64,000 nt of DNA from an uncultured Acidobacteriota bacterium (GTDB lineage Bacteria; Acidobacteriota; Vicinamibacteria; Marinacidobacterales; SMYC01). Position numbers and translations under genes: made by a program. The stretch spans positions 46,481 through 110,480 of the forward strand of contig CAMYKY010000004.1 in NCBI GenBank assembly GCA_947259165.1. The letters are read 5' to 3'. Positions 15,273-47,943 of the stretch are shown in pieces (position 1 is the stretch's first letter; the number at the start of each line of letters is the position of its first letter). The notes beneath the pieces are model-generated. The model was given only the letters and a program-made list of their open reading frames with translations, did not search any database and had not been told where the DNA came from.

Positions 15273-17564
15273 ATGTCGAACGCCAAGTGGCCACACGAAG
15301 CCCCGCCAAGGCCCGAGCCCGAAGCGGCCGACTTCTTTCCGCAGACCACCGAGACCCATCTCCGGGACTATTGGTACATCATCCTCAAGCGACGCTGGAT
15401 GATTCTCGCTGTGGTTGTTTGCGTCGTCTCCTACTCGGCCGCTCGCGCTCTGATGCGAAAGCCAGTCTACTCTGCGACCTCCGTGCTGCAGATCGATCGC
15501 GGAAAAATCAACCTCGTGCAAGACGTCATGACGCCCGACTACTGGACCGGTTACAATGAGTTTTATCCGACCCAGCAGCGCGTTCTCCAAAGTCGGAACC
15601 TCGCCCGGCGTGTGGTTCGACAGCTTCGCTTGTGGGAGCATCCGTACTTCACCGGCGGGCATCCGCTCGAAGCCGACGAGCAAACGCTCGAAAATCTCTC
15701 CGGCGCAGTCGTCGGGATGCTACAAATCGACCAGATCCGAAACACCCAGCTCATGGAGCTGCGTTTCACCACGCTCGACCCACAGGTCTCCGCCGACCTG
15801 TCGAATGCGCTCGCACAACAATACATCGCCTTCAGTAGCGAGAGCGAGACGACGCTGGCCCGGGACACGGCCGGATTCATCGGAGAGCAAGTCGAAAAGA
15901 TTCAAAAAGAAATTCAGCAGCGGGAGAAACTTCTCCAGGAGTACAGCCAGCGCGAAGACTTGATGATGGTAAACGAAAAAGAGCTCAGCGTCATGCGCCA
16001 ACTGGAAGAGCTCAATACCGCCTACACTCAAGCACGCGCGGCGCGAGCGAACGCGGAAGCCAACTTCCGCAGTATCTCTGCCGACGCATCCGGTCTACCG
16101 GAAGTCCAGTCGAACCCTTCGATTGAAGATCTGCGTAGCGAACGAGAGCGCGCTCGAAGGAGCGTTGCGGATCTCAGCTCCAAGTTCAAAGACGACTGGC
16201 CCGAGCTCCGGCGTGCTCGCGAAACGCTAGCAGACATCGACCGGCGCTTGGTCCAAGAGCAGCGGACGGTCGCGAAGAAGCTCGTGGCCCAGTCCCAAGT
16301 CGAGTACCGGGCAGCGCTCGAACGAGAAACCCTCCTGCTCCAAGAAGTCGAGGCCCAGAAGCAGGAAGCCCAGGAGCTCACCGAGCTCACGTCGAACTAT
16401 AACCAGATCAAGGCGGAGGTCGACAATCAACGCTCCATGCTCCAGCAGCTCTTGCGGCGCCGCACCGAGACGGGACTCTCCGCCGAGCTCGGCGAGCGCC
16501 AGCCCGTCAACGTACGCATCGTGGAGGCCGCTCTCGTACCGAGAGGAGCGAATGGGCCTGGGCTCAAGAGAAACTTGTTCATGGGGGCGTTGATAGGTAT
16601 CGGACTGGCTCTAGGCGCAGCTTTTTTTCTCGACTACTGGGAAACCGCCATTTACACGATCGAGGATTTGAGAAGGCACGTGCCGCTCCCCTACATGGGG
16701 ATGGTGCCGCGTCTCGAGGCCGCGTCGTTTGCGCTCTGGGCGGGCAGCAGGGGGAAATTCCTAGCTTACGACCCTGGCGAGGCGGTCAGCCCGCGGCGGG
16801 GCAAGAGCATGAATCGAACCCGCTCGGCGCTCGCGCTCTCCCAAACGACGAAAGTCGCGTCGCGCGCCAAAGAAGACACCTCGATGATCGCCGAGCGCTT
16901 CAAATTCCTTCGTGGCTCCCTCCTGCTATCGACCCCCGGAGCGCCGCCGCGAACCGTGCTCGTGACCGGACCCGACAAGAACGCCGGCAAGACGTTCGTC
17001 GCGTGCAATCTCGCGACGTCCCTCGCGGATCTCAACAAGAAAGTCCTTCTCATCGACGCCGATCTGCGCAATCCCCAACTTCACAAGGTGTTCCGCTTCA
17101 AGAATCGAGTCGGGTTGTCGAACGTTCTCTCCGGTCAAACGACGATCGAGAAAGGCTGTATCGTCTCGACTCCCATCCCGAACCTCTATGTCTTGCTTGC
17201 GGGGCCCGCAAGCCCGACACCCGCCGAGCTTCTAGGCTCCTCCAAGATGGAAGAGACGATGGCGCAGTGCATGGAGCACTTCGACTATGTCCTGCTCGAT
17301 TCGGCGCCGCTTCTCCCCGTATTCGACTCGCATTACTTGACGGTGCGCGCCGACGCGAACTTGCTCGTAGTCCGAAGCGGCCACACGTCGCGACACGCGG
17401 TAACGCAGAGTTTGGATCTCATCGATCGCGTCGGCGGCCGTGTCACCGGCGTGGTTTTGAACGATGTCAATCTCGCTGACTACGCTCAAAACTACTACTA
17501 CAGCTACCACAGCTACGAGTACGGCACCTATGCCGAAGACCCGGTAGAGCGAAGGGCGGGTTGA
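15273..17564 (+). CDS. Polysaccharide biosynthesis tyrosine autokinase (Wzc-like, Wzz domain + BY-kinase)
   Basis: Wzz-like N-terminus and coiled coil; Walker A GPDKNAGKTFVACNLATSL, Walker A' VLLIDADLRNP; Tyr-rich C-terminal tail NYYYSYHSYEYGTY. Confidence 0.92.
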   Translation: MSNAKWPHEAPPRPEPEAADFFPQTTETHLRDYWYIILKRRWMILAVVVCVVSYSAARALMRKPVYSATSVLQIDRGKINLVQDVMTPDYWTGYNEFYPTQQRVLQSRNLARRVVRQLRLWEHPYFTGGHPLEADEQTLENLSGAVVGMLQIDQIRNTQLMELRFTTLDPQVSADLSNALAQQYIAFSSESETTLARDTAGFIGEQVEKIQKEIQQREKLLQEYSQREDLMMVNEKELSVMRQLEELNTAYTQARAARANAEANFRSISADASGLPEVQSNPSIEDLRSERERARRSVADLSSKFKDDWPELRRARETLADIDRRLVQEQRTVAKKLVAQSQVEYRAALERETLLLQEVEAQKQEAQELTELTSNYNQIKAEVDNQRSMLQQLLRRRTETGLSAELGERQPVNVRIVEAALVPRGANGPGLKRNLFMGALIGIGLALGAAFFLDYWETAIYTIEDLRRHVPLPYMGMVPRLEAASFALWAGSRGKFLAYDPGEAVSPRRGKSMNRTRSALALSQTTKVASRAKEDTSMIAERFKFLRGSLLLSTPGAPPRTVLVTGPDKNAGKTFVACNLATSLADLNKKVLLIDADLRNPQLHKVFRFKNRVGLSNVLSGQTTIEKGCIVSTPIPNLYVLLAGPASPTPAELLGSSKMEETMAQCMEHFDYVLLDSAPLLPVFDSHYLTVRADANLLVVRSGHTSRHAVTQSLDLIDRVGGRVTGVVLNDVNLADYAQNYYYSYHSYEYGTYAEDPVERRAG

Positions 17565-18730
17565 TCCCCATTCCGGACGCCGCCGAAGGGCCCCCAAGCC
17601 CCGAGAACCTTGCTGCCCTCGACGATGTCGTAAAGACGTGCGGGAGCCGGATCCGCTCCGGCAAAAGCTTCTTCGAAACCGCTGAATCCGAACGTCTGTC
17701 ACCCCTCCTCTACCACGTGTTCGATCGTCTCGGTTGGCCCGACACCGTGTCCAAGGAAGAGCAGCACCACTTCCGGAAGGCTTATTACCTGAGTGCCGGC
17801 CAGAACGTCGAGCTGCTGGGTGCGCTATCCGAGGCGGCCCTCGCTCTGCGCGAACAGGATATCCCCTGTGTCGCGTTCAAGGGCGCCGCACTGGTGAAGC
17901 GAATCTACCCCAACGTCGCCGTGCGTCCCATGGGCGATGTCGACGTCTATGTACCCCCTGCTAGCGCCGAGCACGCCGAGGCAGTGCTCTCCACGCTTGG
18001 CTATCGGCCCTTTTGTCCTGACATGACCCCGGGTCTGAGTCGACGCATTCGTCACGCGCGCCTGTACGTCGGTGGGACCCGGGAGACGACGAGCATCGAC
18101 CTCCACTGGTCCTTGGTCGGACACAGCAACGATGCCCGATCTCCCGATCCACACTGGCTGCGCCGAAATATTGTCGCGCGCAATGGCGATCCTTGGATGC
18201 ATTTTTCCGACACCGCGCACCTTCTCTACCTGAGCGCGCACATGAAGCTGCAACACTACGACGAGGAGATTCCCCTGTTGTGGTGTCTCGACTTCTACCT
18301 CCTCGCGACTCGGGGGGACATCGCTTGGGACCAGCTCTTGAGCGATGCTCGCCGCTTTGGCTGGACCGACGCCGTGAGCGCCGTCGCATTCGATGTCCGA
18401 GAGCGTCTAGGCGTCGCGCTACCCGCACCCCTCGAGCGGATCGCTAGCGCTCCGAAAGCCCCGCTTCATCGTCACGGCGCGCGGAACGAGCCCGAGCGCG
18501 TCTTGAACGAGCTCCGAGCCCTGGGGTGGTCGGGTCGCCTCGCGCTTGTGAGAGCCTACGTCCTGCCGTCACCCACCTACATCCGCTTCCGCTACCAGAC
18601 GCTGAGCTGTCCTCTCGGGTATGCCAAACGTTGGAGCACGATGCTCGCCCGGGCGGGCACTATTCTTCTGCGCGCACTGCGGCGCAAGCCCGGGACTCGC
18701 CCACTATTGACTTCGCGAGAAAATTGCTAG
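17561..18730 (+). CDS. Nucleotidyltransferase family protein (NTP_transf_5-like)
   Basis: VAFKGAALVKRIYPNVAVRPMGDVDVYVPP (DxD after RPMGD); TTG start overlapping the wzc stop. Confidence 0.75.
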   Translation: MIPIPDAAEGPPSPENLAALDDVVKTCGSRIRSGKSFFETAESERLSPLLYHVFDRLGWPDTVSKEEQHHFRKAYYLSAGQNVELLGALSEAALALREQDIPCVAFKGAALVKRIYPNVAVRPMGDVDVYVPPASAEHAEAVLSTLGYRPFCPDMTPGLSRRIRHARLYVGGTRETTSIDLHWSLVGHSNDARSPDPHWLRRNIVARNGDPWMHFSDTAHLLYLSAHMKLQHYDEEIPLLWCLDFYLLATRGDIAWDQLLSDARRFGWTDAVSAVAFDVRERLGVALPAPLERIASAPKAPLHRHGARNEPERVLNELRALGWSGRLALVRAYVLPSPTYIRFRYQTLSCPLGYAKRWSTMLARAGTILLRALRRKPGTRPLLTSRENC

Positions 18731-18753
18731 GATCGTTTTGTCATCTAAAACCC

Positions 18754-19671
18754 ATGAGCACTGAGAGCCTTGGAGCGCGCTACCTCGCCCACCCAGATCG
18801 ATTTCCCGAGTGGGGCGAGGGAGCGCCGTTCGGCCCGCGAGAGACCTCGATGACCATCTGCGGTACGCGCGTTCGCATCTCGGGACTGAGCCACGAGCAA
18901 GACCGCGCGATTCACGCTTTGTGGCCTGACTTCGTGGGCGAGGACGTCGCTGAGCCAGCCGCTTTGAGCGTTTTTCGGACTCCTGAGTCGACATTCAAGA
19001 AACTGGATCGCTGGGTCTACGAGCTCGACTTCGACTACCAGCCAGGGTCCTTGCGCCTCGCCGGGCTCGATCTCATGGCGCGGGTCGACATGAGCTCACC
19101 GCTACGCGCCGCACTCTGGATCGCTACCGAGTCGCCCGACACCTTCCACGGTGCGTTTGAGAACTTTCTTCGTGTCGTCGTCGCGTATGCGGCGATGCAT
19201 CGAGGCGGCGCCTTGGTGCACAGCGCTGCCGTCGTCGACGGTGACGACGCCTGGCTGTTCGTCGGCCACTCAGGCGCCGGCAAGTCGACGGTCTCCCAGC
19301 TAGGACTCGACTCGGGTCGGCGCGTGCTCAGCGACGACCTGAACCCGATTCTCCCACGCGAGGACAACGGGATCGACGTCGTCGGTAGCCCCTTCCTCGG
19401 CGATCTCGGCACACGCTCGCCCGCGCGCCATCGACTCTCGGCTATCTATCGCCTGGAACAAGGAACAGAGGATAGTCTCCGCCCCATGGGCGCCGCCGAA
19501 ACGCTCGCGTGTCTGATGGCATGCGCACCTTACATCAACCGTGATCGGCACCGAGCCGATACGCTTTGTTCGAACCTATTGGAGATGGCACAACAGGTGC
19601 CTGCCAAGGTTTTGACCTTTCGTCGGGACGGAACGTTCTGGCCGCTTCTAGAGAGGACAGCGCTTGCCTGA
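18754..19671 (+). CDS. HPr-kinase-related (HprK-like) kinase
   Basis: P-loop WLFVGHSGAGKSTVSQLGLDSGRRVLSDDLNPI typical of HprK-related kinases; located between nucleotidyltransferase and PqqD genes. Confidence 0.78.
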   Translation: MSTESLGARYLAHPDRFPEWGEGAPFGPRETSMTICGTRVRISGLSHEQDRAIHALWPDFVGEDVAEPAALSVFRTPESTFKKLDRWVYELDFDYQPGSLRLAGLDLMARVDMSSPLRAALWIATESPDTFHGAFENFLRVVVAYAAMHRGGALVHSAAVVDGDDAWLFVGHSGAGKSTVSQLGLDSGRRVLSDDLNPILPREDNGIDVVGSPFLGDLGTRSPARHRLSAIYRLEQGTEDSLRPMGAAETLACLMACAPYINRDRHRADTLCSNLLEMAQQVPAKVLTFRRDGTFWPLLERTALA

Positions 19672-19966
19672 TTTGAATCTCGTATTTAGACGTAAGGATG
19701 ACATTCGCTACCGTGTCGTCGGAGACGAGGCCATCGTCGTTCGCCAGAACGCCGCGGAGGTTCTTGCGCTCAATGACGTTGGCGCGCGTGTTCTCGAGCT
19801 CATCGACGCCGACAAGACGCTCGCACAGGTGATCGCGACGATGTCGGGTGAGTACGACGTCCGCCCAGACGAGCTCGCGAACGATGTGCAACGTTTTGTT
19901 GCCGCTATCCGGGATGCCGGTATCGTCGTGGATGTCAGCGAGGAAGTCAGCGAAAAGGTCCGCTGA
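19664..19966 (+). CDS. PqqD family peptide-chaperone / RRE-like protein
   Basis: VVGDEAIVVRQNAAEVLALNDVGARVLELIDADKTLAQVIATMSGEYDV matches the PqqD fold pattern; ~100 aa. Confidence 0.8.
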   Translation: MPDLNLVFRRKDDIRYRVVGDEAIVVRQNAAEVLALNDVGARVLELIDADKTLAQVIATMSGEYDVRPDELANDVQRFVAAIRDAGIVVDVSEEVSEKVR

Positions 19967-19971
19967 AAATC

Positions 19972-21072
19972 GTGCGTACCAAGAGAGAGCGTAAGGTTTC
20001 GAGCTCCCAAAGCCTGGAGCCGAGCTACGACGAGACCATCCTCGGGACGTGGGAGAACCATCACCTGTTCTCCGCTCTCGTGGAGTTGACCTATCGATGC
20101 AACCTCGATTGCTACTTTTGTTACAACGATCTCGATCTCGCCGGAGACCCCCTGCGTCTCGCCGACTACGAGCGTCTGTTCGAAGAAATGCGCACGCTCG
20201 GTTGCCTGCATTTGACGTTGTCCGGCGGCGAACCGCTCGCCCATCCAGATTTTTTCGCCATCGGAGCCAAAGCGCGCGAGCTCGACTTCGTAGTCCGAGT
20301 GAAAACTAACGGGCATGGGCTCGATCGTGAGCTCGCGGGCAGACTCCGAAGCGAAGTCGACCCGTTCATCGTCGAAGTCAGCCTGCACGGCGCTTGCGCT
20401 GAAACCCACGATCGACAAACGCGCGTTGCCGGAAGCTTCGATCGGCTCGTGCACAACCTGGACGTGATGCGAGCGACGGGCCTGCGCGTCAAAATCAACA
20501 CCGCGCTGACCCGTTGGAACGAGCGCGAGATCGAAGGTATGTTCGCGATTGCAGACCGCTTTGCCGTACCGCTCACCCTCGATCCTGAGGTCACGCCGCG
20601 TGACAACGGAGACCGGGACCCGATGCGCATCAGCGCGTCACCGGAGGGATTGCGCCATCTCGTCGCGGTACAGGCGAGTCGGCGCAAGGGGACACAAGCC
20701 GAGGTCCTGCGAGAAGGCGACGCTGAGATTCACAGCCGGGATCCCGACAGGCACTGTGGCGCGGGCGCGTCGGGCATCGCGATCGATCCTTATGGCAATG
20801 TCTACCCGTGCGTTCAATGGCGACGGGCCATCGGAAACGTCCACGGAAGCTCGCTCCAGGGGATCTGGCGCGCGAATGGAAAACTCGATGAAATCCGGCG
20901 ACTCACCGTCGAAGCCAAAGGAGTCGTGAGCGGCCACGACTCCGAAGTCCCACTCGTCGGATTCTGTCCCGGTGTCGCCGAGATGTTGACGGGCGATCCT
21001 CTGGCCGTTCCCGAGAGTACATCAACCCGCGCCAACGTCCTGTCGGAGTTGCCGCTCCACCCCGTCCAATAA
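19972..21072 (+). CDS. Radical SAM/SPASM domain protein
   Basis: CNLDCYFC (CX3CX2C), LTLSGGEPLAHPDFF, C-terminal HCGAGASGIAIDPYGNVYPCVQWRRAIGN...FCPG cysteine motif. Confidence 0.9.
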   Translation: MRTKRERKVSSSQSLEPSYDETILGTWENHHLFSALVELTYRCNLDCYFCYNDLDLAGDPLRLADYERLFEEMRTLGCLHLTLSGGEPLAHPDFFAIGAKARELDFVVRVKTNGHGLDRELAGRLRSEVDPFIVEVSLHGACAETHDRQTRVAGSFDRLVHNLDVMRATGLRVKINTALTRWNEREIEGMFAIADRFAVPLTLDPEVTPRDNGDRDPMRISASPEGLRHLVAVQASRRKGTQAEVLREGDAEIHSRDPDRHCGAGASGIAIDPYGNVYPCVQWRRAIGNVHGSSLQGIWRANGKLDEIRRLTVEAKGVVSGHDSEVPLVGFCPGVAEMLTGDPLAVPESTSTRANVLSELPLHPVQ

Positions 21073-21297: not shown

Positions 21298-21474
21298 TCA
21301 GGAGCGCTGGGCGAGCGGGCAGGTGCCGACGTTTGCCTTGGCGGGCGGGCGCGGGGTGCACAGCGCGGCCATAGCTTCGAGCGGCTCGCGGTAGAGGATC
21401 TCGGGCCGGCGATATTTCTTCTTGGTGGATGCGGGTCCGTTGGCGGAGGCTCGTTTCTTTTCGTCGTGTTTCAT
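21298..21474 (-). CDS. Small RiPP-precursor-like peptide (58 aa from the ATG)
   Basis: MKHDEKKRASANGPASTKKKYRRPEILYREPLEAMAALCTPRPPAKANVGTCPLAQRS: charged leader, K/R-x-PEI motif, short Cys/Gly/Pro core; converges with the rSAM/PqqD cassette. Confidence 0.6.
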   Translation of the reverse strand: MKHDEKKRASANGPASTKKKYRRPEILYREPLEAMAALCTPRPPAKANVGTCPLAQRS

Positions 21475-21606: not shown

Positions 21607-22890
21607 CTAGGGTCTCAGGATTAGGTTGAAGTTGGCGACCACGCGGCCTTTATCGAACGCGACGACGTTCGAGCGACGATCGAAGTACTGAGTAGTCACG
21701 CCCACGAACCAGGATCTTTGGATGTTGTACTCGAACGACAACTGCAACGACAGATGCTCGTCCACGATCTCTTCCTCAACGATCTCGCCGTCGACGTCTT
21801 GCGTGATCCTCGGTCGGGGATAGTTGTTGTCACCGACAATCGCTCCTGGCTCGATCGAAAATCTCTCGTGGAGCTGCCATCTAAAGAAAGCTCCGACGCG
21901 ATTCTGAACGAAGTACCAGTTGTCAGTGAGGATCGACGGCACGACATCGCGCTCATAGACGCCGCGTAGCCGATGCCGGCTGGCGGAAGTCAGCCGAACG
22001 TCGGCGGCACCGATGGGCCCGGTATAACCGAACCGAGAGTCCGCAACGGGCACGAGCTTTCGAAAGCCAACCATCACTCGTCCGGTAATACCGGTCTCGT
22101 TCGTCGACGGAACCAGCGCCCGGGGCGACTTGGGCGAAAAATCGAACCCCGCTCGTGCACCGTACGACTCGTTGTCTCTGATGTCATCGTCAAAAGCTTG
22201 CGTTTCGAAAAAGCCCTCGACTATGGCTCGCGTCTTCGAAGTGACTTGCCGAGCGAAGTCCACCGAGATCGAGTCCTGGACGTTGTTGAGCCGCGACGGA
22301 ATGGTCGGGTCCTCGAGCGTCTGGTCCCGAATTTCGGTTTTGTACTGATGGTATCGAGCCCGAAGCTCATGCCGCCAACCCAGCGCCATGGTCAACGATG
22401 TTTCGAAATGATTCGTCCGGGTCTCGACAGGAAAATCGAACTCGCTGGTCGGACGCTGGGTCTCGTCGCGAAACTCGTCGTCGACTGCAAGAAGGAATCG
22501 CCGACTACCCCATCCACCTCCGACACGCGTGATGTTGAAGACTTGTCGCAGCGCGACTTGCTCGCGGTAGTAGACAAAATCGACTTCTTGATACACGTCG
22601 AAAAATGCCCGGGAACCTAAGGGCAGACGGAGCTGAATCCCCGGACCGAACATCGCGCTGATGTCCTGCTGTGGATCCGGCGTCGACAACGTGTTTGAGT
22701 CATATCCAGTCGAGAATCGAACGACCGGCGTTGCATAAAACGGCCCGAGCTCGAAGAGTCCGTCGCGGACGCCGTCGAGCTCGTTTTCGATCAAGTTCAC
22801 AGACTGGGAGCTAGCAGAGGCGGACGCGAGCAACGCAACCGCAACCGACGTCAGGACAGTGCCGACACGGCCAGAGAAGGAAATCATCAT
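21607..22890 (-). CDS. Outer-membrane beta-barrel protein (EPS-associated)
   Basis: Signal peptide, alternating amphipathic strands, C-terminal VVANFNLILRP; inside EPS locus. Confidence 0.72.
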   Translation of the reverse strand: MMISFSGRVGTVLTSVAVALLASASASSQSVNLIENELDGVRDGLFELGPFYATPVVRFSTGYDSNTLSTPDPQQDISAMFGPGIQLRLPLGSRAFFDVYQEVDFVYYREQVALRQVFNITRVGGGWGSRRFLLAVDDEFRDETQRPTSEFDFPVETRTNHFETSLTMALGWRHELRARYHQYKTEIRDQTLEDPTIPSRLNNVQDSISVDFARQVTSKTRAIVEGFFETQAFDDDIRDNESYGARAGFDFSPKSPRALVPSTNETGITGRVMVGFRKLVPVADSRFGYTGPIGAADVRLTSASRHRLRGVYERDVVPSILTDNWYFVQNRVGAFFRWQLHERFSIEPGAIVGDNNYPRPRITQDVDGEIVEEEIVDEHLSLQLSFEYNIQRSWFVGVTTQYFDRRSNVVAFDKGRVVANFNLILRP

Positions 22891-25901: not shown

Positions 25902-28666
<2,765 letters not shown>

Positions 28667-28879
28667 GGTCGATCCGCGAAAGCCTCCGCGCCAACGGGCA
28701 ACCCGGCGACACCGGGCCACAACCCACTCGCGCACTAGTGCGAACTCGGTTTTGATGAACGTGGTTGAAATTTGGATATCTAAGTTACGTCAAGTATAGA
28801 TGATGGAGAGTTGGGTGTAAATTCCTACATGGTGCGAAGTTTGCCGGTTTTCAGTTGCGGGCTCTCGGCGGGAAATGAT

Positions 28880-46053: not shown

Positions 46054-47943
46054 TCATCGTGGCGGGGTTGCCGCCAGCACCGGCACTTCAGGGCTTTTGG
46101 CCGCAACGCCTTGCAAGCGTTCGACCCACGCACTGAACGCAACGAGCGCCCACGGCCGTGACCAATGCGCTCGGCCGCTTTCGAACTCATTCCAGACGCC
46201 ATCCACCGCTCCCGGACGGAACAAATCTTCGTTTTGCGCCCGATCTCGAAGCTCTGCGCGGTGAGCGAGAAGAAAACGCCGGAACGGAAACGTAAACCCC
46301 TGCTTGGGACGATCCCACACCTCGCGCGGCAGGCGATCCGCGAGCGCCTCGAGCAGAAGCGGCTTGTTGACGCTATGCGCGAGCTTGGATGCGTGCGGAA
46401 GCCGATACACCGCTTCGACGAGTCGATGGTCGAGAAACGGTACCCGGGCTTCGATCGAGTGCACCATGCTCATCGCGTCGGTGTCGCGCAGAAGTTGGTT
46501 TTGCAAGTAGTGTTCGAACTCGAGGCGCACCGCCGAGTCGAGCAGGTCGCGCGAGGATCCGTCACCGAGCGAAGCGCTTTGCGTACTCGGCATCGCGCCT
46601 ACAGAATCAGGGTCGTTGACAAGTCCTGCCACTTGCCGGGGGCTGAACAGACCGCGAAACATCCGGTACACGTTGGGCGCGCTTGGCTCTGCAAGATAGT
46701 CGAGTCGGTCCTTGCCGCTCAGGGATCGCGCCGCCGCCGCAAGGGCGACGCGGACGCTTCGGGGCAGGCGCGCGAAAGCACTCGCGTAAGGAGCCAAGCG
46801 CGACAACGTTTTGTGGTGCGGGTACCCGAGAAAGACCTCGTCGCCACCAAGTCCGGTAAGCACGACGGTGAGGCCTGCCTGTTTCGCGGCGCGCGAAACG
46901 AAGTAAGTATTGACGCCGTCCACGGTAGGTGAGTCCATCGCATCGAAGACGCGCGGCAGCGTCTCGAGAAAATCATTGGCATCCACCGAGACCTCGCGAT
47001 GATCGGTCCGATAGCGCTCGGCAATCATCCGCGCGTAGCGTGCCTCACTGACCCGGATGTCATCGAAAACCACGGAGAGCGTCGTCAGCGGTGCCTCGGC
47101 ATCCGCGCTCGCAAGCGCAACCAACGTCGCGGAGTCGATCCCGCCACTCGAGAACACACCGAGAGGGACGTCGCTCACCAGGTGAAGCCGAACCGACTCG
47201 GCAAGAATCTCCGAGATCGTCGTCGAGTCATCGCGAGTCGTATCGTCGTCCGAGTCGAGACTCCAGTAGCGCACGAGCGACGTGCACTCGCCACTGATCT
47301 CGAGATAGTGCGCCGCGTGAAGCGTCTCCACACCCTTCAACGCCGTATTCGGACCGGGTATCGACCCGAGCTCGAGAAACGACGCCAGCGCCCGCGGGTC
47401 GAGCTCGGGCGCCACCACGCGGCTCGCAACCAGTGCCGTCAACTCCGACGCGAAGACGAGCGCGGCACTGCGTCGCGCATAGTAAAGAGGCTTGATACCG
47501 AAGCGGTCCCGGACCAAGTACGACTTTTCCCGACCCGAGCGGCGAGCGTCGTGCAGAGCGAAAGCAAACATCCCGCGAAGCCGTAACACCAAACCGTCAA
47601 TGCCCCACTCCTCATAGCCGTGCACCAAGACCTCGACGTCGGTTCCGGAGGCGAAGGCGTGTCCCGACGATTCGAGCTCCGACTTCAGCTCGCGAAAGTT
47701 GTAGATCTCGGCGTTCGCGCTGACCCAAACGTTACCAGCCTCGTTGGTCATCGGCTGACGTCCGCGGTCGGAGAGATCGATGATTGCGAGTCGTCGGTGT
47801 CCGAGACACACGATGTCGTTCTTTAGTAGGTGCTCGCCGTCGGGGCCTCGATGCGCTTCGGCTTGCAGCATGCGCAAAACTGCCGCACGGTCTTCTTCGT
47901 CGATCCGTCCCTGCGGACGAATCAGGCCAGCAATACCACACAT
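46054..47943 (-). CDS. asnB: Asparagine synthase (glutamine-hydrolysing)-like amidotransferase
   Basis: MCGIAGLIRPQGRIDEEDRAAVLRMLQAEAHRGPDGE (Cys2 GATase II); VFSSGGIDSATLVALAS; full-length 629 aa. Confidence 0.92.
   Translation of the reverse strand: MCGIAGLIRPQGRIDEEDRAAVLRMLQAEAHRGPDGEHLLKNDIVCLGHRRLAIIDLSDRGRQPMTNEAGNVWVSANAEIYNFRELKSELESSGHAFASGTDVEVLVHGYEEWGIDGLVLRLRGMFAFALHDARRSGREKSYLVRDRFGIKPLYYARRSAALVFASELTALVASRVVAPELDPRALASFLELGSIPGPNTALKGVETLHAAHYLEISGECTSLVRYWSLDSDDDTTRDDSTTISEILAESVRLHLVSDVPLGVFSSGGIDSATLVALASADAEAPLTTLSVVFDDIRVSEARYARMIAERYRTDHREVSVDANDFLETLPRVFDAMDSPTVDGVNTYFVSRAAKQAGLTVVLTGLGGDEVFLGYPHHKTLSRLAPYASAFARLPRSVRVALAAAARSLSGKDRLDYLAEPSAPNVYRMFRGLFSPRQVAGLVNDPDSVGAMPSTQSASLGDGSSRDLLDSAVRLEFEHYLQNQLLRDTDAMSMVHSIEARVPFLDHRLVEAVYRLPHASKLAHSVNKPLLLEALADRLPREVWDRPKQGFTFPFRRFLLAHRAELRDRAQNEDLFRPGAVDGVWNEFESGRAHWSRPWALVAFSAWVERLQGVAAKSPEVPVLAATPPR

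Follow-up and report, generated by a model that had tools for sequence, protein, structure and literature searches.

Organisation of the cassette and its EPS setting

The window analysed here, a stretch of 64,000 nucleotides, carries four tightly packed genes on its plus strand directly after wzc, as a preliminary description of this DNA had reported. The first gene (17561-18730) encodes an NTP_transf_5 nucleotidyltransferase (NTase; PF14907, E 1.5e-47), which is an optional member of the cassette. The second (18754-19671) encodes an HprK-like kinase, the proposed kinase of a C-terminal serine, and its best NCBIfam match was ScmC at 31.7 bits, below the cut-off of 125. These are followed by a putative PqqD-like leader-binding (RRE) protein (19664-19966; PF05402, E 3e-14) and a radical SAM enzyme with a SPASM-like C-terminal region (19972-21072; PF04055, E 3e-19; SPASM, E 2e-7). 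The TTG start of the PqqD gene at 19664 agrees with the PqqD start of the orthologue in G002, a genome from another genus of the window's family. The wzc stop and the NTase start overlap by 4 bp, the NTase and HprK genes are separated by 23 bp, the HprK and PqqD genes overlap by 8 bp, and a gap of 5 bp precedes the radical SAM gene. The upstream gene (15273-17564, plus strand) encodes a wzc-like EPS tyrosine autokinase (TIGR01007, 158.8 bits, above the cut-off) and is context, lying outside the proposed pathway.

The cassette sits within a large EPS locus, again in agreement with the preliminary description. Downstream of it, minus-strand genes encode a sugar transferase, glycosyltransferases, epimerases and a carbamoyltransferase, and the locus also holds an ABC-2/Wzt-type transporter and a Wzy_C protein. 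The full-length asparagine synthase (46054-47943) and the carbamoyltransferase (26870-28735) inside the locus suggest amidated or carbamoylated sugars. A beta-barrel porin gene (BBP2_2; 21607-22890, minus strand; PF10082, E 1e-5) was also regarded as context. No exporter or obvious leader protease adjoins the window cassette.

A conserved precursor peptide beside the cassette

The span first assigned to the cassette, 17561-21072, leaves out a short open reading frame on the minus strand (21298-21474, stop codon included). This encodes a peptide of 58 residues, MKHDEKKRASANGPASTKKKYRRPEILYREPLEAMAALCTPRPPAKANVGTCPLAQRS, which is the proposed substrate on the basis of short-ORF clustering, a profile search and conservation. 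The preliminary description had made the presence of a conserved small Cys-containing ORF its key test, and such an ORF was found. When short intergenic ORFs around the cassettes were clustered with no motif given, one family emerged from 16 sources including the window, with the L066 member being a doubtful match, and a profile search added further members beyond the cluster. A profile that excluded the window copy retrieved it from the six frames of the window at E=3e-20, the next best match having an E-value of 0.14. The window peptide was the sole precursor copy found in its genome. Four loci (L067, L072, L075 and L143) carry more than one copy each.

The family follows the pattern of a YxxP…ExLE leader, a C…K…C stretch and a terminal serine. 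In the alignment of 23 precursors, the Pro of YxxP, Glu33, Ala36, Cys39, Lys46 and Cys52 were invariant, and the last residue was Ser in all 23. The leader motif Y21-E33 (YRRPEILYREPLE; 21376-21414, minus strand), in which Pro24 and Glu33 are invariant in 23/23, is the proposed PqqD-binding site. The proposed core extends from C39 to S58 (21301-21360, minus strand) and contains the invariant Cys39, Lys46, Cys52 and C-terminal Ser58 (codon 21301-21303). The last residue is Ser in 67 of the 68 distinct precursors from the fetched loci and Thr in the remaining one; the Cys-Lys-Cys order is kept in 65. Core length and Cys-Lys-Cys spacing differ between relatives, and the variable spacing makes the bond formed unpredictable.

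In G002, the peptide is located at the end of a contig, and the genes that lead up to it are those of the window in unchanged order (carbamoyltransferase, epimerase, glycosyltransferase, sugar transferase, reductase and beta-barrel); a separate contig of that genome ends in wzc–NTase–HprK–PqqD. Comparison of the window and G002 precursors over 58 codons gave a dN of 0.27 and a dS of 1.28 (dN/dS of about 0.2), which indicates purifying selection on the gene. A precursor match was present in 69 of 396 sampled Acidobacteriota genomes. Searches of Pfam and NCBIfam against the precursors gave no match at E up to 1, and no family model or paper describing the precursor was found; the family is apparently undescribed.

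A sister precursor group with the pattern KKxYExPxIxHTEKxEARAVxCxKxDD.C..GPIxS was observed in other Acidobacteriota (L150, L161, L162, L163, L170, L173 and L175). Its loci mostly contain PqqD, radical SAM and C25 genes, with the kinase genes farther off in the genome.

Distribution of homologous loci and optional members

A scan of genome contigs with the radical SAM enzyme delineated a tight group (L055-L078) at 47-59% identity. Identity falls to 40% at L079 and then below 33%, and a fragment, L090, also matches at 56%. The hosts of the tight group include Acidobacteriota, Myxococcales, Competibacter and other Beta- and Gammaproteobacteria. The HprK-PqqD-rSAM triad occurs in about 25 genomes of several phyla, a recurrence that argues against chance, and the three genes lie together, in more than one gene order, in almost all members whose flanks were long enough to show them.

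The preliminary description had listed the NTase among the four cassette genes, and had counted homologues of the radical SAM and PqqD genes without the NTase or the kinase against its proposal. The NTase accompanies about 11 of the 24 radical SAM subfamily members and is thus optional, so radical SAM and PqqD genes without an NTase do occur. Absence of the kinase was seen only locally, at L060, an apparent exception: the HprK, PqqD, NTase and S24-like genes of that genome lie on a different contig. EPS-type genes flank some members only, namely the window, G002 and L061; L055 carries a Wzy_C protein and L070 an epimerase. The coupling to EPS genes is kept in two genera of the window's family but absent from many homologous loci, and an EPS function would be at most lineage-specific. 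The notion of a peptide-modification cassette with a kinase tag thus gained support, whereas its links to the NTase and to EPS are not general.

Farther HprK and radical SAM loci of the same class also contain Cys-bearing YxxP peptides with a terminal Ser (L023, L025, L026, L028, L029 and L031); a similar Cys-bearing YxxP peptide is present in L024, in a stretch that showed no kinase. Precursors of the CK...C type with a terminal GS were located in L023 (10741-10968), L025 (11454-11727), L026 (11010-11216), L028 (9844-11172) and L029 (10114-10332). Those distant CK...C precursors that were tested matched no NCBIfam or Pfam model, and the group could be the peptides that belong to ScmC-like cassettes.

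Protease neighbours

Peptidase family C25, the gingipain family, is also that of the Porphyromonas sortase PorU. A C25 peptidase gene was located within 5 kb of the precursor for 13 of 21 subfamily-like precursors and 13 of 25 others, often immediately before it on the same strand. In the window, this position upstream of the precursor is occupied by the same-strand beta-barrel porin gene, which is placed in the same order in G002. Very large proteins that look secreted and carry Peptidase_C25 as their C-terminal domain directly precede the precursor in L055 (11011-15492), L061 (11268-15809), L067 (3669-12850), L072 (3996-8762) and L075 (1-9235), and C25-precursor pairs are sometimes repeated.

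A small S24/S26-like protease, with Ser or Cys as the expected nucleophile, precedes HprK in more than 10 loci. The nucleophile is Cys instead of Ser in about half of these proteases, and a His stands where many signal peptidases have Lys; examples are found in L057 (8303-8719), L069 (8351-8767) and L064 (6061-6489). Neither protease type adjoins the window cassette. The window genome contains seven C25 matches, all outside the window, and an S24-like match on contig C20 (E 6e-12).

Two further roles for the C25 proteins were considered. The C25 genes of the window genome were rejected as linked partners, there being no precursor within the fetched flanks. The C-terminal tails of neighbouring C25 proteins were rejected as the modified site, because several loci lack such tails, as do the C25 proteins encoded by the window genome itself.

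The kinase and the terminal serine

Lasso-peptide kinases with a His-Lys-Asp-Asp motif phosphorylate a C-terminal Ser, and in pseudomycoidin the addition of one or two hexoses to that phosphate requires an annotated nucleotidyltransferase (PMC9266682, PMC8498205). Both features of the HprK-like kinases of phosphorylated RiPPs, the His-Lys-Asp-Asp motif and a precursor with a C-terminal Ser, were found here. In an alignment of 22 kinase sequences, H156, K177 and D194 were invariant and position 195 was Asp or Glu (Asp in the window); residues H156, K177, D194 and D195 are the proposed catalytic motif. The AlphaFold model of the kinase (pLDDT 90) has a fold matching PEPCK and L. casei HprK/P.

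Kinase profile matches were present in 66 of the 69 precursor genomes as compared to 61 of the 327 others (Fisher p 2e-35, without correction for ancestry), and in all 56 genomes with strong precursor matches. The terminal Ser is retained even where no kinase lies within 8 kb, in genomes that encode the kinase elsewhere, which makes the Ser-kinase link a genome-level correlation. The idea that a kinase at the same locus explains the terminal Ser was not discriminating, because genomes whose locus has no nearby kinase encode one elsewhere, often 7-16 kb off on the same contig.

Two arrangements of the kinase gene were observed in individual loci. One radical SAM gene and one precursor are flanked by two HprK-PqqD pairs in L069 (8764-12555), and in G002 (L036, 80-290) about 200 bp of repeat-like A-rich DNA (gcgtaacgcaaaggcgcaaagtcgcaaagg) separate the HprK and PqqD genes, which abut in the window.

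The radical SAM enzyme

The enzyme carries the CxxxCxxC motif and SPASM-like C-terminal region of radical SAM/SPASM RiPP maturases. The invariant cysteines of the alignment were those of the motif (C43, C47 and C50), plus C262, C280 and C332. A full SPASM set consists of seven Cys for two auxiliary clusters, while C262, C280 and C332 alone are invariant in that region; these three might ligate a single auxiliary cluster that has an open site. The closest solved structures were PqqE by profile and SuiB, BlsE, PqqE, CteB, anSME and SkfB by fold. The mycofactocin maturase had the top NCBIfam score, with NirJ and PqqE also high.

Comparison with known systems

The cassette resembles several described systems, each in part. 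Phosphorylated lasso peptides (paeninodin; pseudomycoidin with PsmK and PsmN) share with it a PqqD-type leader binder, an HprK-like kinase with His-Lys-Asp-Asp, a precursor ending in Ser and an optional annotated nucleotidyltransferase (PMC9266682). The window differs from them in having a radical SAM enzyme in place of the B2 protease and cyclase, and in the Cys-Lys-Cys core of a different precursor family. By analogy, the cassette would work like phosphorylated lasso tailoring plus a radical SAM maturase.

SynChlorMet (Scm; TIGR04248-TIGR04251) likewise brings together HprK-like (ScmC), PqqD-like (ScmD) and radical SAM/SPASM genes, with separate ScmE and ScmF models as compared to the single radical SAM gene of the window. 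None of its cut-offs was reached (ScmC 31.7/125, ScmD 25.2/100, ScmE 77.1/400 and ScmF 68.2/400 bits), and none of the Scm precursor models matched the window peptide. HPr-rel-A (TIGR04352, TIGR04353), to which the cassette had been likened, shares the HprK-related kinase and the PqqD-related chaperone, to which the window adds a radical SAM enzyme and a precursor; the likeness did not hold by the model cut-offs (HprK_rel_A 19.7/200 and PqqD_rel_X 18.7/35 bits). The PQQ biosynthesis cut-offs were also missed (PqqD 37.7/46 and PqqE 89.2/381 bits). By these tests, the cassette lies outside the SynChlorMet, HPr-rel-A and PQQ families. The SPASM enzymes SuiB, CteB, PqqE and SkfB share the fold and domain order and act on leader-bearing peptides; the window enzyme differs in its three invariant auxiliary-region Cys, its precursor family and its link to a tail kinase. 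Literature searches on HprK with PqqD and radical SAM, on SynChlorMet, and on radical SAM RiPPs with C25 found nothing relevant.

Proposed pathway and alternative explanations

We consider it likely that the locus encodes a RiPP pathway in which the precursor is bound by PqqD, modified in its core by the radical SAM enzyme and phosphorylated by the kinase on Ser58, with an NTase addition where that gene is present. The observations cover the genes and folds, the precursor family with its invariant residues, and the co-occurrence; from these we infer the chemical steps, their order and the biological role. The YxxP leader of the 58-residue precursor would be bound by PqqD, and the radical SAM enzyme would introduce a radical-based change, probably a cross-link, into the Cys...Lys...Cys core. 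The kinase would then phosphorylate the invariant C-terminal Ser on its side chain, and the NTase, where present, would attach a glycosyl or nucleotidyl group to the Ser phosphate, the product perhaps being glycosylated in such cases. In many relatives, the S24/S26-like protease and the secreted C25 peptidase are probably the enzymes that mature the peptide or make use of it; those of the window genome would need to act in trans. A further extension, in which the NTase joins the peptide via its C-terminal phosphoserine to a sugar or the local EPS and the C25 peptidase of relatives places it at the surface, is quite improbable; if true, the product would be a phosphodiester-linked, radical-SAM-modified surface glycopeptide.

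The high scores for the mycofactocin maturase, NirJ and PqqE, together with PqqE as the nearest solved relative by profile, would also suit a precursor that serves as the scaffold of a small redox cofactor (PQQ- or mycofactocin-like) completed by the kinase and NTase. We regard this as unlikely, given that core length and Cys-Lys-Cys spacing vary among relatives, unlike such a scaffold, that the terminal Ser fits a tail kinase, and that the PqqD and PqqE cut-offs were missed.

Another explanation is that the cassette targets EPS or an EPS-linked protein, with the NTase and kinase regulating or decorating the polysaccharide machinery and the short ORF being a bystander. The overlap with wzc and the conservation of the EPS gene order in another genus of the family agree with it. 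However, the precursor accompanies the triad in genomes of several phyla with loci showing no EPS genes, and its occurrence follows that of the kinase throughout the phylum, which makes this explanation decidedly doubtful.

The weakest alternative, a lasso cluster with an added radical SAM enzyme and a B2 protease and cyclase acting in trans, draws on the YxxP-type leader, PqqD, HprK and NTase, which resemble phosphorylated lasso clusters, and on a Transglut_core3 protein close to the set in L057, with a similar protein in L068, but is very improbable. No B2-like gene lies near the window cassette or in most loci, and two Cys and a Lys are kept invariant rather than a lasso ring Gly with Asp/Glu. 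The window's full-length asparagine synthase (46054-47943), a candidate for the asparagine synthase-like cyclase, carries a glutaminase domain and is located 25 kb off within a group of EPS genes. In agreement with the preliminary description, profile scans gave no match to a B2-type transglutaminase-like protease near the window cassette; a B2-like match does occur in L057 and L068. In these two loci, lasso-type sets lie beside the radical SAM cassette (L057, 13398-16333; L068, 2825-6226), with PqqD, Transglut_core3-like and NTase genes and, in L057, HprK; the identity of L068 1237-2781 as an asparagine synthase was not confirmed.

Implications of the proposed RiPP pathway

The RiPP reading names a likely substrate of the HprK–PqqD–rSAM cassette, the 58-residue peptide, and its function therefore becomes directly testable with a defined peptide, enzymes and a predicted modification site. 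It also draws attention to a family of precursors, apparently not described before, whose members often occur with gingipain-family peptidases. The results suggest that phosphorylation of a C-terminal Ser by HprK-like kinases extends beyond lasso peptides, where it is known, to RiPPs more widely and combines with radical SAM chemistry.
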